Assembly: GCA_018771605.1 (NCBI GenBank)
Contig: CP076324.1
Span: forward strand, 1,527,700 to 1,591,699
Origin: Aquificota bacterium
Lineage (GTDB): Bacteria > Aquificota > Aquificia > Aquificales > Aquificaceae
Direction of reading: 5' to 3'
Length of the DNA: 64,000 bases
Shown here piece by piece: positions 10,031-59,253 of this stretch. A program made the translations under genes and the position numbers. The notes under the pieces were generated by a model. It saw only the letters and a list, made by a program, of their open reading frames with translations, was not told the origin of the DNA and did no database searches. Every line of letters starts with the position of its first letter. The first letter of the stretch is position 1.

Positions 10031-10116
10031 GCCTCTACAAAGTATGAATTTCTCACCCAGCGTATTTTTGCTAAAAATAAATGAGACAAAAAATGTAGAG
10101 GCACGGCATGCCGTGC
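10031..10116. repeat. inverted repeat with inner dispersed motif and terminal palindrome
   Basis: GCCTCTACA (10031-10039) is matched in reverse complement by TGTAGAGGC (10094-10102). The right arm continues into the palindrome GCACGGCATGCCGTGC (10101-10116). Between the arms lies the dispersed motif GAATTTCTCACCCAGCG followed by GCTAAAAATAAATGAGACA. The layout resembles a small non-autonomous mobile element, but I see no transposase or target duplication here. Confidence 0.7.
10046..10090 (+). repeat. dispersed intergenic motif, most complete copy
   Basis: It contains TTCTCACCCAGCGTATTTTT and GCTAAAAATAAATGAGACA. Parts recur at 10201-10221, 15922-15940 (reverse complement), 15980-15998, 29147-29157 (reverse complement), 29191-29213 and 58452-58472, always outside genes. 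Confidence 0.8.
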
Positions 10117-10200: not shown

Positions 10201-10221
10201 AAATTTCTCACCCAGCGCATT
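10201..10221 (+). repeat. dispersed intergenic motif, partial copy
   Basis: AATTTCTCACCCAGCG here repeats the left half of the 10046-10090 element. The TAAAAATAAATGAGACA half is absent. Confidence 0.7.
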
Positions 10222-13751: not shown

Positions 13752-14555
13752 ATGACGGATTATGAGAAGCTTCTTGAGGATGACTACTTGGAGATAGCAG
13801 GTAGGCGTTTTCGCTCAAGGCTTATCATAGGCTCTGGTAAGTTCAAAAGCTTTCAGGAGAACAAGGAGGTCCTTGAAGCCTCTGGTGCAGAGATTATAAC
13901 GGTGGCCGTGCGTAGAGTAAACATAACAGATAGGTCCAAGGAGAACCTACTTGATTACATAGACCCCAATAAGTATCAAATACTCCCAAACACAGCTGGT
14001 TGTTATACGGCGGAGGAAGCCATAAAGACGGCCATGCTGGCAAGGGAGGCCACAGGAATAAACTGGATAAAGCTGGAGGTTATAGGAGACCAAAAGACCC
14101 TTCTGCCCGATATGGAGGAAACGTTAAAAGCTGCCAAGTTCTTGGTAAAGGAAGGCTTTGTGGTATTGCCCTATATCTTTGACGACCCTATTTATGCCAA
14201 AAAGTTTGAGGATGTGGGCTGTGCTGCTGTTATGCCACTTGCGGCGCCCATAGGTTCAGGCCTTGGTATGCAAAACCCTTATAATCTAATCTTCATAAAG
14301 GAAGCCGTTTCTGTGCCTGTTATAGTGGATGCCGGCATAGGCAGTGCTGCGGACATTCCACCCGTTATGGAGCTTGGTATAGATGCCATCCTTACCAACA
14401 CAGCCCTTGCGGAGGCAAAGGACCCCATAAAGATGGCTGTGGCCATGAAGTATGCGGTCATAGCGGGTAGGCTCTCTTACCTTGCTGGCAGGATGCCAAA
14501 GAGGACCTATGCGGTTCCATCCTCTCCACTAAAGGGAGTTCCATTTAAGACATGA
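13752..14555 (+). CDS. thiG: thiazole synthase ThiG
   Basis: The 267-residue TIM-barrel enzyme makes the thiazole phosphate of thiamine from deoxyxylulose phosphate, dehydroglycine and ThiS thiocarboxylate. It shows [12 protein letters not shown], the Schiff-base lysine in [22 protein letters not shown], the [11 protein letters not shown] loop and [12 protein letters not shown]. It directly follows thiS and overlaps the next start by 4 nt. Dehydroglycine is probably supplied by the ThiO-like oxidase at 28101. Confidence 0.96.
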
Positions 14556-15862
14556 TAGATGTGGCAGTGGTAGGCTCGGGCATATCCGGGCTATCTGTAG
14601 CATGGCATCTGTCAAAAAAAGGCTTTGAGGTAAAGGTCTTTGAAAAGGAAGACCTTCCTGGTGGAAACATACAAACCGTAAAGAAGGAAGGCTTTATCTT
14701 AGAGCTTGGCCCACAGACTATAATGGCAGACAAAAGGGTGGAAGAGTTCCTTTCCGATGCAGGAATAGAACCCGAATACGCTAGCGAAAGGGCCAAGATA
14801 AGGTATATTTACAAAAAGGGAAGGCTTATATCCTTGCCCCTGTCTCCCTTAAGCTTTTTAAAATCTCCCCTCCTTTCTCTTTTTGGAAAGATAAGGGTTC
14901 TAAAAGAGCCCCTTATAGCACCCTCCATAAAGCCAGAGGAGAGCATTGCGGAGTTTGTAATAAGAAGGCTTGGAAAGGAGTTTCACGATTACATAGTGGC
15001 ACCTTTTATATCCGGCGTTTATGCAGGAGATACGGAAAAGCTCTCTGTAAAGTATGCAGTAAGAAGGGTCTATGAGCTTGAAAGGAACTTTGGAAGCCTT
15101 ATAAAGGGAGCTATAAAGCTAAAGGCTTTGGGACCCGCTGGTAGGCTCATATCCTTCCCAGGAGGAAATTACACCTTAATTGAAAGGCTTTCTTCAGAGC
15201 TCTCTGTGGATACGGAGAACGTAGTCCTAAAGATCAGAAGGAAGGATGACAGGTTTATAATAGATGCCAAAAATGGTAAGTATGAAGCCAAGGCTGTAGT
15301 AGTGTCTGCACCAGCCACCTCCGCAGGCTACCTTCTTAGAGACATCTCTTGGAGTGCTTCCCAGGAGTTTGACCAGATATACTACGCACCTATTGTGGTG
15401 GTGCATGCAAGCGTAGAAAAAGGGTCCATTCCAGAGGGCTTTGGCTTTTTGGTGCCAAGGGTGGAAGGCAAAAGGATGCTTGGTGTCCTCTTTTCTTCTC
15501 AAATATTCACCGGCAGGTCTCCAGAGGGCAAGGAGCTTCTTACCATATACCTGGGCGGTGCCACAGACCCAGAGGTGGTTGAATATGAAGATGAACTTAT
15601 ATACTCGCTTGTGGAAAAAGAACTAAAGGAAATCTTAAGAATAGACAAGGTCCAATTTTTGAACCTGACAAGGTGGAAAAGGGCTATACCACAGTATACG
15701 ATTGGATATGGTAAATACCTTGACCTTGCCAAAACCTTGGAAGAGGAGAACCCTGGGCTATTTTTGACGGGCAACTACCTTTATGGTGTTTCTGTGGCGG
15801 ACTGCATAAGGGCTTCTCATGATGTGGCGGAAAGGGTGGAGAGATTTTTAACAAGAAGATAA
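14552..15862 (+). CDS. hemY: protoporphyrinogen/coproporphyrinogen oxidase (HemY type)
   Basis: A 436-residue FAD amine-oxidase-fold protein with the dinucleotide motif [15 protein letters not shown] at the N-terminus, [20 protein letters not shown], the [10 protein letters not shown] loop typical of HemY, and a C-terminal [19 protein letters not shown] motif. It oxidises porphyrinogens in heme synthesis. It overlaps thiG by 4 nt, probably just sharing the transcript. Its last codons and stop lie in the first copy of a 20-bp direct repeat. Whether it acts on the proto- or copro- substrate cannot be told by eye. Confidence 0.9.
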
Positions 15863-15863
15863 T
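15844..15863. repeat. 20-bp direct repeat, copy 1 (end of hemY)
   Basis: ATTTTTAACAAGAAGATAAT, identical to 15993-16012. This copy encodes the C-terminal FLTRR and stop of hemY. Confidence 0.95.
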
Positions 15864-15992
15864 TACGTCGGGTTAGAAATTCCTTTTTATAGGCACGCAT
15901 CAGCGTGCCCCTACCTTTAACTGTCTCATTTATTTTTAGCAGGGTGGAAGGGCATTGGCAAGCCCAGTCCTAACTAACTCCTCACCCGGCGT
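15864..15992. repeat. 129-bp insert with dispersed repeat motifs
   Basis: Bounded by exact 20-bp direct repeats. It contains the palindrome GGCACGC-ATCA-GCGTGCC (15892-15909), TGTCTCATTTATTTTTAGC (15922-15940, the reverse complement of the dispersed motif) and CTCACCCGGCG (15981-15991). No gene. It looks like a small repetitive element inserted between convergent genes. Confidence 0.75.
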
Positions 15993-16012
15993 ATTTTTAA
16001 CAAGAAGATAAT
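15993..16012. repeat. 20-bp direct repeat, copy 2 (end of Mut7-C gene)
   Basis: Identical to 15844-15863. Read on the minus strand this copy encodes the C-terminal LSSC and stop of the Mut7-C gene. Confidence 0.95.
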
Positions 16013-16455
16013 ACCTCTTTTAAAATCCTCTTGAGCCTTGGATGGTGTGAGCCTTTCCAATAAATTTTCCCACAACCTGGGCATAGGGTAAAGTCTTTGC
16101 CATACTTATAGACCATGGGCGGTATTTTGTCTTTTATCTCTTCCTTATCCACGGGTAAAAGTGGGGAATTGCAATAATAACATCTGTTTAGCTTTAACTC
16201 TCCATTTATGCCAAAAAATTTCAAAATAAGACACAACTGCACCTTCCAATCATCCTTTGGGATTAGAAAATACTCTACTCCCCAAGCCTTCAGATGTTCT
16301 TCCATCTTCCTTGAAGTGGTGATAAAAACCCGACCAGGGTGCTTAAGAAGGTCTTTTTTATTTATGGCGCCCTCCAAGAGGAGGGCATCCTGGCCCAAAA
16401 GCCTTAGCCAATAGGCTATTTTATGGAGGTCCGCCTCAAGCAAGAACCTCTTCAA
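15997..16455 (-). CDS. Mut7-C RNase domain protein with zinc ribbon
   Basis: A 152-residue protein with the Mut7-C pattern: FLLEADLHKIAYWLRLLGQDA at the start (a PIN-like fold), VFITTSRKM, then a zinc ribbon from CYYC and CPGCGKIYWKGSH. Homologs are predicted ribonucleases; no substrate is known. The start is uncertain: the TTG at 16455 or the TTG at 16446, both within the end of leuC. The last four residues and stop lie in a 20-bp repeat shared with hemY. Confidence 0.8.
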   Translation of the reverse strand: MKRFLLEADLHKIAYWLRLLGQDALLLEGAINKKDLLKHPGRVFITTSRKMEEHLKAWGVEYFLIPKDDWKVQLCLILKFFGINGELKLNRCYYCNSPLLPVDKEEIKDKIPPMVYKYGKDFTLCPGCGKIYWKGSHHPRLKRILKEVLSSC

Positions 16456-21645: not shown

Positions 21646-22081
21646 CTCAGAAACAGTTAAATACGCTCTGTTGGCTTTGGCTTATTTAGCAGTAAATAGG
21701 GACAGGCTGGTAAAGGTGGAAGAGATTGCGGAAGCCCAAAGGATACCCAAGCCCTTTCTCTCTAAAATTTTCCATAAGCTTGCAAGGGAAAGGGTTTTAA
21801 AGTCCTACAAGGGGCCAACTGGTGGCTTTACCCTTGCGGTGCCTCCAGATAAGATCACCATAATGGACGTTATAAAGTATCTGGATGAGGATTATAAACT
21901 GGACTACTGCGCCCTTAGGCCCGGAAGGTGTGAAGAATGGAACGTCCTACCCTGTGCAGTGCATGACAAATGGACCAAGCTTAGACAAGAGATTCTGGAA
22001 TACCTTAGCACAACCACCATAGCAGAGTTGGCAGAGGTGGAAGAAAAGCACAGAAAGCCAGTCAATTCAGCTAAGTTATAA
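21638..22081 (+). CDS. Rrf2-family regulator with three cysteines
   Basis: 147 residues from ATG 21638. A winged-helix N-terminus (YALLALAYLA, IPKPFLSKIFHKLA, GPTGGFTLA) is followed by Cys91, Cys98 and Cys106. The spacing is close to the [2Fe-2S] ligands of IscR and NsrR, so it is probably an iron-sulfur sensor of iron, redox state or NO. An upstream in-frame start at 21572 exists but would read through the promoter. The 3' end overlaps convergent nrdD by 11 nt. The target genes are unknown. Confidence 0.85.
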   Translation: MIYSETVKYALLALAYLAVNRDRLVKVEEIAEAQRIPKPFLSKIFHKLARERVLKSYKGPTGGFTLAVPPDKITIMDVIKYLDEDYKLDYCALRPGRCEEWNVLPCAVHDKWTKLRQEILEYLSTTTIAELAEVEEKHRKPVNSAKL

Positions 22082-25736: not shown

Positions 25737-26571
25737 TAGGGCAGGGGTAATATTCATAGGGATAACCATCTTTTTGGGCGTTGCAGCGGTCAATACTGCA
25801 AATAACCTACTTTATCTTGTGGTCTCCTACATGCTTTCTTTTATGCTACTTTCCGGTATGCTTTCCCTTTATAACCTTAAGGGCCTTGAGGTTTTGCTTT
25901 TGCCACCGGAAGAAGTATATGCTGGCTTGGAAACACCTTTTAGAGTGGTAGTGAAAAACCAAAAAAGGCTACCTTCCTTTCTAATAGAGGTAAAAAGCGG
26001 TAAAGGCTATTGTCTATTTCCCTTTATAAAGGAAGAGAGTGAAGGCATCATACACATATACTTTGAAAAAAGGGGCTTATACGAAAACCTGGAGGTGGAA
26101 ATTTCCTCTTCCTTTCCTGTGGGCCTTTTTGAAAGGTTTTATAGTTTAAGTGTGCCGTTGAACCTGGTAGTCTTCCCTAAGCCTTTGAAGGCCAGCGAAA
26201 GTGCTTTGAACTCCGTAGGCAAGAAGGAGGGCATTACTCCTCGCCACAGTAGGATAAAAGGTTATGAAGAGCTTGAGGGTATAAGAGAATACACGAACGA
26301 GCCAATAAAACTTATACATTGGAAGATCTCTGCAAAAACGGGAGACATTTATGTAAAGGAAATGGTAGAAGAAGCTTCTCCGCCTATCATACTATCTTTG
26401 GACAGCGTGGATGGAAGCTTGGAAGAACGTATTTCAAAGCTTACCTACCTAATTGTTAAGTTTATATCTCAAGGAAGAGCAGTGGGCTTGGAACTTCCCC
26501 ATATCACCATAGAGGCTTCCACTGGCACAGCCCACAAAAGAAGAATGCTTAAAGAGTTAGCCCTCCTGTAA
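25720..26571 (+). CDS. DUF58 protein with two N-terminal helices
   Basis: 283 residues starting at a GTG within the end of the slipin gene. Two membrane helices (residues 8-26 and 31-50) precede a beta-rich region and the DUF58 signature [28 protein letters not shown], followed by a vWA-like stretch ([13 protein letters not shown]). DUF58 proteins usually sit next to MoxR ATPases; none is nearby. Function unknown. The 3' end overlaps convergent pheA by 15 nt. Confidence 0.8.
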
Positions 26572-32655: not shown

Positions 32656-32983
32656 AAAGATAATGACAGACTTCTTCCTTCTTATGGCTCTTACCACCAA
32701 CCTTAGCTTTATATTCAATCCAAATCCATATGAGCTTGTAATAACGGTTATAACCAATCTTACAGCTACCATACTTAAACTCGGAGAGGGCAAAATACTG
32801 GCTACAGAGATGACTGCGGCAAGCCTTGTGGCAGACCTTCACCTTATTCCAGCCACCTTTATATATTTTTTGGGTGATGTTCAGGAAGCAGTAAGCCTTG
32901 CCATAGGGGCCTTGGCAGCCAATATAATATCCATCCTACTTTCTATCATAGAAGCCATATTTAGCTATCTATCAGAGGAGTAG
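32645..32983 (+). CDS. small membrane protein, DUF6394-like, with K+ channel
   Basis: 112 residues with three or four hydrophobic helices (FFLLMALTTNLSFIF; ELVITVITNLTATILKLG; LIPATFIYFLGD; LAIGALAANIISILLSIIEAIF). The pattern resembles DUF6394 proteins, which I recall beside potassium channels; not verified. It overlaps the channel gene by 11 nt with GGGAGG upstream, so it is probably a channel partner. The 3' end overlaps the convergent tRNA-end enzyme by 12 nt. Confidence 0.65.
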   Translation: MKLKKIMTDFFLLMALTTNLSFIFNPNPYELVITVITNLTATILKLGEGKILATEMTAASLVADLHLIPATFIYFLGDVQEAVSLAIGALAANIISILLSIIEAIFSYLSEE

Positions 32984-36119: not shown

Positions 36120-36602
36120 ATGATAGAGATGGTTGTGCATGGAGTAACCCTTGACCCTGTGTCTCAGATGCCTATAGTGATTTTGAGGGCAAAAGACAAT
36201 GAGGAAGTGATCCTTCCTATATGGATAGGTGTTTTTGAAGCAGACAGTATAGTACGCCAGCTTCAAAGGATAGAACCGCCAAGGCCCATGACCTATGAGC
36301 TTACAAAGAACATAATAGAAAGTATGGGTGCAAGGCTTGAAAAGGTGGTAATAACCGACTTAAGAGATAGCACCTACTATGCGGAGCTTCATATAATACA
36401 TGGGAACAACCTTTTGGTTATAGATTCAAGGCCAAGCGATGCCATAAACCTTGCATTAAGGTTTGATGTTCCAGTCTTCGTTGAGGAGGAAGTTTTAGAA
36501 AAGTCCAAAGTGCCAAAGCCGGAGGAGGATGAAGAAAAGGAAAAACTAAGAGAATGGCTTGAAAACATAAAACCCGAAGATTTTGAAAAGGGCTTAAGTT
36601 AA
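36120..36602 (+). CDS. bifunctional nuclease (BFN/DUF151) domain protein
   Basis: 160 residues with the BFN pattern: PVSQMPIVILRAKDNEEVILPIWIGVFEADSI, RPMTYELTKNIIESMGARLEKVVITDLRDSTYYAEL and IDSRPSDAINLALRFDVPVFVEEEVLE. Members have DNase/RNase activity in some species; a general role is not known. The C-terminus is an acidic helical tail. The 3' end overlaps a convergent gene by 9 nt. Confidence 0.9.
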   Translation: MIEMVVHGVTLDPVSQMPIVILRAKDNEEVILPIWIGVFEADSIVRQLQRIEPPRPMTYELTKNIIESMGARLEKVVITDLRDSTYYAELHIIHGNNLLVIDSRPSDAINLALRFDVPVFVEEEVLEKSKVPKPEEDEEKEKLREWLENIKPEDFEKGLS

Positions 36603-58451: not shown

Positions 58452-58472
58452 AAGAACGAATTTCTCACCCGG
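58452..58472 (+). repeat. dispersed intergenic motif, partial copy
   Basis: GAATTTCTCACCCGG here matches the left half of the element at 10046-10090, in the 86-bp gap between the methyltransferase and cyclase genes. Confidence 0.6.
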
Positions 58473-58512
58473 AGTGTTAGTATGTTATTATTATAAACAG
58501 GCGGAGTGAGTT

Positions 58513-59253
58513 ATGTGGGAGGTTTATATAGCCCTTGGCATTGCCATATTTATGCTAAGTGTAGGTTATGCTGTAAAGGATCTCTTTTTTAGAAGGCTTG
58601 CTCTTTTGTATGCTGTAGCCTTTCTGCTTTTGTCCGCTGGCTACTATGCAAGCTACGTGGTTAATTTGAGAATTTACTTTAGCTTTATGAACGTGTTTTC
58701 TTACCTTATCTTTTCCTATACCTTTTTCCTTAGCTACAAGCTTGTAAAAACACAAAGGAAAGAGATGGAAAAGAAGTACTTAGACACTATAACGGGAGTT
58801 TTTAATAGGCTATACTTTGAAGAAGTCTTACCACAAAGAATAAAAGCTATTTTGAGCCTTGGGTTGAACTACTTGGTTGCCTTCTTAGATTTGGACAACT
58901 TAAAACAGGTAAACGATACTTACGGCCATTTGAAGGGTGATGAACTTATAAAAAACCTTGCAAAGGTTATAAAGCAATCTATTAGAAGTCATGAAGATGT
59001 GGTTATAAGGTATGGAGGAGATGAGTTTTTAGTTGTAGCTCCCATAAGGGCTTGTGGAGATAGTTTAATCCTTTTGGAAAGGATAGAAAGAAACATAGAG
59101 GAGATGAACCGATCCCTTGAAATCCCTATATCCTTATCCATTGGCTTTGCCTGTTATCCCGATGATGAGAAGGATTTTGAGAAGCTTTTGGAAATTGCGG
59201 ACAAAAGGATGTATCAAGTAAAGCTTTCAAGAAAAGGCCTTATTTCCACATAG
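58513..59253 (+). CDS. membrane diguanylate cyclase (GGDEF)
   Basis: 246 residues. Three N-terminal helices (IALGIAIFMLSVGYAV; LALLYAVAFLLLSAGYYASYVV; FSFMNVFSYLIFSYTFFLSY) and a GGDEF domain (about 90-245) with DTITGVFNRLYFEE, FLDLDNLKQVNDTYGHLKGDELI and an intact RYGGDEF. It makes cyclic di-GMP. No inhibitory RxxD stands five residues before GGDEF. The 3' end overlaps convergent pgeF by 40 nt. Confidence 0.93.
   Translation: MWEVYIALGIAIFMLSVGYAVKDLFFRRLALLYAVAFLLLSAGYYASYVVNLRIYFSFMNVFSYLIFSYTFFLSYKLVKTQRKEMEKKYLDTITGVFNRLYFEEVLPQRIKAILSLGLNYLVAFLDLDNLKQVNDTYGHLKGDELIKNLAKVIKQSIRSHEDVVIRYGGDEFLVVAPIRACGDSLILLERIERNIEEMNRSLEIPISLSIGFACYPDDEKDFEKLLEIADKRMYQVKLSRKGLIST

Follow-up and report, generated by a model that had tools for sequence, protein, structure and literature searches.

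At the hemY/Mut7-C junction of the window (the whole stretch of 64,000 nucleotides that was analyzed), a short element has been inserted between two direct repeats. In all probability, it is a non-autonomous mini-transposon that entered a 15-bp overlap of the two genes, likely moved by the 966-bp insertion sequence (IS) of its own family, and the long stagger behind its direct repeat is general to the transposase family rather than particular to this junction. The names hemY and Mut7-C are the labels of the original prediction and do not stem from a family search.

Table 1. Genes, repeat copies and element parts at the hemY/Mut7-C junction (window coordinates).
Feature	Position	Strand	Remark
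hemY-like gene	14552..15862	+	436 aa; final codons and TAA inside the left 20-bp copy
Mut7-C-like gene	15997..16455	-	152 aa; end and stop (15997-15999) inside the right 20-bp copy
Left target-site duplication copy, 20 bp	15844..15863	.	single copy at congener empty sites
Right target-site duplication copy, 20 bp	15993..16012	.	identical to the left copy
Inserted mini-element (MITE), 129 bp	15864..15992	.	missing from nine congener junctions
Left terminal inverted repeat ACGTCGGGTTAGAAATT	15865..15881	+	2 mismatches to the family repeat ACGCCGGGTGAGAAATT
Right terminal inverted repeat	15976..15992	-	2 mismatches to the family repeat
Internal hairpin GGCACGC-ATCA-GCGTGCC	15892..15909	.	in the part common to other short copies

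The inserted element and its repeat family

The two copies of ATTTTTAACAAGAAGATAAT agree at 20 out of 20 positions and are spaced by 149. As originally predicted, the left copy holds the end and stop of hemY and the right copy those of the Mut7-C gene, in agreement with the open reading frame (ORF) coordinates. The predicted insert length of 129 bp is correct for the stretch between the copies, but the element proper is a 128-bp core (15865-15992) that runs from ACG to CGT. The extra T at 15864 may be either an element base or an altered target base. The inverted-repeat ends of the insert, ACGTCGGGTTAGAAATT and AACTCCTCACCCGGCGT, are bounded exactly by the perfect 20-bp direct repeat, and this combination is not a product of chance, because the same arrangement recurs elsewhere in the genome. 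With a 128-bp core that is too short for a transposase gene and 17-nt terminal inverted repeats (TIRs) with two mismatches each, the insert has the features of a MITE.

Other functions of the stretch were considered as well. No terminator-like site is found across 15700-16200, and a terminator was rejected; the same interval comprises two promoter-like sites compared to 0.9 expected. An Rfam search over 15600-16300 returned one sub-threshold CRISPR-repeat-like match, located outside the insert and at chance level. RNA folding of the insert is strong on both strands (z about -4), which may merely reflect the inverted ends and hairpins; a structured 3' end is a possible, though unsupported, role.

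The unit also occurs elsewhere, as had been proposed for a mobile element. A 169-bp query yields at least 48 matches in its own genome (itself included, some being pieces of one copy; the scoring covered 40 out of 82 first-look candidates), and long direct repeats also border other copies. The TIR pattern CGCCGGGTGAGAAATT occurs with up to three mismatches at 53 + 60 sites versus 2 + 2 for a reversed control. About 100 of these 113 places were listed, and within the stretches fetched around them at least 21 full-length copies of an IS were counted, 20 of 966 bp and one of 965 bp, with the same TIR as the mini-element. All twenty 966-bp copies contain a full-length transposase match (96-100% identity), one of them with an internal TAG; in the 965-bp copy the transposase gene is broken into two pieces. 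In the window, matches to the TIR or core of the same repeat family are also present between ORFs, at 10047-10062, 10069-10105, 10202-10217 and 58459-58474. The short copies L009-L028 carry modular palindromes (e.g., GTAGTGGCAGG..CCTGCC), combined differently from copy to copy, as would follow from an exchange of hairpin modules.

Carrying the same inverted-repeat ends, the 966-bp IS would be the likely source of transposase for the mini-element. The enzyme would join the two element ends to two target strands about 20 bp apart, and repair of the gap would copy the 20-bp stretch on both sides. Apart from approximately the outermost 20 bp, the mini-element does not resemble the full IS; it has, in addition, a core in common with other short copies. 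This limited similarity leaves some room for a real insertion by a different transposase or integrase, the ends of the 966-bp IS being alike through convergence. We consider such an origin unlikely, as both forms combine the same TIR, duplications with AT...AT ends and an unusual length class, and the 966-bp IS, in many open copies, has the sole transposase gene met with these ends in searches confined to this repeat family.

Empty sites in congeners

A Mut7-C protein search in 41 genomes (the own genome and 40 relatives) gave matches in 25, including 11 out of 13 other genomes of the same genus. In nine of these 11 congeners (G001, G002, G003, G004, G006, G008, G010, G011 and G013), the ends of hemY and the Mut7-C gene overlap in convergent orientation and the insert is missing, as was foreseen for empty sites. 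The overlaps measure 15 bp (n = 3), 18 bp (n = 1), 27 bp (n = 3), 39 bp (n = 1) and 54 bp (n = 1), and the hemY homologs of ten congeners show 73.7-78.1% identity. The Mut7-C match of G003 lies in two pieces on two contigs, has an internal stop and is counted for the junction only. G012 contains about 430 bp of other sequence between both genes, and this locus yielded no TIR of the family; in G009, no hemY match occurs within the fetched Mut7-C locus.

Joining the flanks of the window at the 20 bp produces a 15-bp overlap, equal to that of the three congener loci L033, L034 and L036, and the joined sequence agrees with the congeners through the joint, as judged by eye. Since the joined flanks match the congener overlaps, the 20 bp represent a genuine target-site duplication that holds both stops. 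The ancestral tail-to-tail overlap that the original prediction envisaged as the point of entry is thereby recovered. Both genes keep a complete end because the duplicated 20 bp held the whole overlap and both stops. The five additional convergent pairs claimed to overlap in the window are likewise found in the mechanical ORF coordinates (22071-22081, 26557-26571, 32972-32983, 36594-36602 and 59214-59253).

The empty sites can also be read in the opposite direction, namely as the loss of an ancestral spacer in the congeners, for recombination between the 20-bp copies would delete precisely the spacer and one copy. However, nine congeners are empty, their single-copy sequences have diverged and their overlaps range from 15 to 54 bp, and independent deletions in all nine are far less likely than one insertion, which makes this course of events highly improbable. 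Replication slippage or recombination, which can produce short direct repeats, hardly deserves more credence as the origin of a 20-bp repeat around an ordinary 129-bp intergenic region, as the spacer belongs to a repeated family and carries the TIRs of that family precisely where it meets the repeat copies, and the nine empty sites contradict it by lacking spacer and second copy together.

Long duplications and classification of the element

Under transposition by the family's own enzyme, staggered joining over 19-38 bp would be a general property of the transposase family and no peculiarity of the junction. Most DDE transposases have a fixed 2-10 bp between their joining points. As the original prediction remarked, 20 bp is long for a transposon duplication, in line with this range; within its own family (19-38 bp), it ranks among the shorter lengths. 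A long direct repeat is present at 14 out of 21 full-length copies (13 perfect, one imperfect) and at eight out of 29 short-element pairs, these 29 rows including four alternative pairings. Among 28 cases measured in G000, G056 and G038, which were chosen for a detected duplication and comprise six copies from G056 and G038, 24 duplications are perfect, with lengths of 19-38 bp and a mean of 26.5, and four are imperfect; a few lengths vary by 1-2 bp depending on where the element boundary is set. The duplications are poor in G+C (18%), and the target bases toward the element are A at -2 in 51 out of 56 ends and T at -1 in 47 out of 56, a pattern to which the AT...AT duplication at hemY/Mut7-C conforms. 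The longest duplication (38 bp) belongs to the full-length IS L198 (own genome, C1:638934-639899), which apparently lies within a copy of the short-repeat family. If the 282-aa enzyme indeed joins at 19-38 bp, variably yet with AT ends, it would exemplify joints that are far apart and semi-independent.

Long duplications (24-33 bp) also occur in relatives from another family of the order. Six out of 20 loci examined have one, all among the seven full-length copies of G056 and G038; none was detected at L137 (G056/G038) or at 13 other loci, which are mostly broken or at contig ends and include two from the own genome. A second empty site is provided by L139 (G056), whose 33-bp duplication is single in G038. 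Its joined sequence gives an ungapped alignment with G038 of 236 positions (216 identical), although only 13 bp extend past the duplication on one side. Weak support comes from L141, whose joined sequence can be aligned with G036 through the joint (68%, five gap positions), and none from L143, for which the stretch is missing in G056 and diverged in G036. G036 and G059 (genus g16, another family of the order) contain 64 + 68 and 93 + 99 TIR matches at up to two mismatches, compared to 0 + 1 each for the reversed control. A TIR pair was found at 21 out of 27 loci in these two genomes, and seven of the 21 paired short elements are flanked by duplications of 21-33 bp, perfect in one case and with 2-4 mismatches in six. 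In other congeners, two out of 18 pairs have a duplication, both 23 bp and imperfect; several G002 ends coincide with contig ends.

The transposase of the parent IS comprises 282 amino acids, is 49% identical to the G056/G038 version and was found in 24 out of 61 genomes searched, its own included. A scan of genome contigs returned 35 loci, in Aquificota records except for one Acidobacteria-labelled MAG, which may be a binning error. In Pfam, no family passes its cut-off with the own transposase, and two out of six relatives match DDE_Tnp_1 weakly (best E 2e-5). The NCBIfam IS982 profile matches the own transposase with an E-value of 1.1e-6 (28.5 bits; cut-off 130) and all six relatives weakly (best 1.4e-8), with 1.3e-8 as the best value for IS5_4. 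Acidic residues are conserved in the alignment at D114 and E240 (six out of six rows) and at D215 (five out of five rows without a gap at that position), making these three the candidate catalytic residues as judged from sequence. The predicted fold of a relative, of moderate confidence (mean pLDDT 68.8), has Tn5 transposase as its best match (Z 11.4, rmsd 4.0, 215 aligned residues), and a Foldseek search with this model gave no match at E<=0.001; the Tn5 match is consistent with a DDE enzyme, a group with an RNase H-like fold.

The excerpted description of the IS1202 family mentions one subgroup that leaves target duplications of 16-28 bp, Acinetobacter members of 1.5 kb with 441-457-aa TnsB-like transposases and 5'-TGT outer ends, other members of 448-473 aa, and TIRs that are alike across the remainder of the group (PMC10132070). 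Measured against these excerpts, the present elements are alike in their long duplications, which at 19-38 bp overlap with and exceed that range, but are set apart by their 966 bp, 282 aa and 5'-ACG ends, a distinction drawn from descriptions that leave out the sizes of the long-duplication subgroup. With IS982 and IS5, the 966-bp IS shares a single, probably DDE-type transposase and a weak profile similarity far under the cut-offs. Known IS982 and IS5 members make short target duplications, in contrast to the 19-38 bp seen here. Like bacterial MITEs, the mini-elements are short and numerous, have inverted-repeat ends in common with a full-length IS and are flanked by a target duplication. The usual MITE duplication is 2-10 bp, whereas the perfect duplications at five short copies span 19-29 bp. 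Because the element lacks the IS1202 features and does not reach the IS982/IS5 cut-offs, we regard the insert as a MITE from an IS group that fits none of the named families compared here, its transposase being distantly IS982/IS5-like and its duplications IS1202-like. A literature search in mostly openly available journals recognized no description of the 966-bp IS or the mini-element. The group offers a second lineage beside IS1202 for studying long duplications.

Target regions and copies lacking a duplication

A long duplication allows an element to enter overlapping genes or promoter and start regions with neither side destroyed. Exact TATAAT motifs occur in nine out of 23 own-genome duplications, while dinucleotide shuffles have a mean of 4.25 and reach nine in 58 out of 5000 cases. 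In seven of the nine, the motif starts 8-10 bases from one duplication end, which none of 5000 shuffles equaled; this position was noticed before it was tested, and each shuffle was scored at its best three-base window. After reconstruction of 20 own-genome empty sites (two out of 22 were dropped, as the right copy was not matched exactly), exact TATAAT is present eight times at offsets 6-14 and four times elsewhere between -60 and +74; the base preceding the duplication is C in 13 and the base following it is G in 15 of these sites. Start codons show a related trend. For 21 insertions, that of the window excluded, ATG is read outward at 21 out of 42 duplication edges, and nine of these 21 ATGs open an ORF of 110 codons or more. 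The background is 331 out of 2085 window ATGs (16%; binomial P 0.003) or, with an AT-rich upstream region, 16 out of 92 (17%; P 0.006). Together, this suggests that insertions in the own genome target promoter and start-codon regions.

With G056 and G038 added, TATAAT is found in 13 out of 29 duplications, eight of the 13 at offset 8-10. Outside the own genome, this offset occurs in one out of four cases in G056/G038 and in one out of three exact cases among six G036 duplications. The promoter register is therefore not established for the whole family, as it is not reproduced outside the own genome. The hemY/Mut7-C insertion itself is off the pattern, with neither a TATAAT promoter nor a start-codon feature. 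As a tentative and rather doubtful extension, the elements may form a distinct Aquificota IS family whose transposase senses active promoters, perhaps through DNA opened by RNA polymerase, and joins its ends to the target on either side of the -10 box at a distance of about 20-35 bp, in many cases between AT and G of the start codon, so that the side facing the gene would regain its -10 box and start codon through the duplication. If so, the element could settle where a gene is most sensitive and leave the gene unbroken, and hemY/Mut7-C would represent the same sparing at gene ends.

No own duplication was detected at seven of the 21 full-length copies and in 21 of the 29 short-copy rows, for the latter presumably due to age. 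A comparison of the flanks of 86 ends (43 out of 50 pair rows, those located within larger stretches) revealed that three of the seven full-length copies share a duplication-length repeat with another copy; the other four have no such explanation. For instance, the IS copies at 160009 and 179477 have the same orientation, and their outer ends share a perfect 27-bp repeat. The interior of this stretch (C1:160009-180442, L231) is about 18.5 kb and comprises ORFs that, named by eye, are murA-like, sulfite reductase/PAPS reductase-like, ATP sulfurylase-like and Ni,Fe-hydrogenase-like. A 20-kb composite insertion is possible, but, given the ordinary chromosomal genes in the interior, a recombination event between two IS copies is no less likely. 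Similarly, the copy at 427733 on C1 of the own genome shares a 28-bp repeat with the copy at 1286538, its right flank repeating the duplication of the other, a sign of recombination between copies and of rearrangement.
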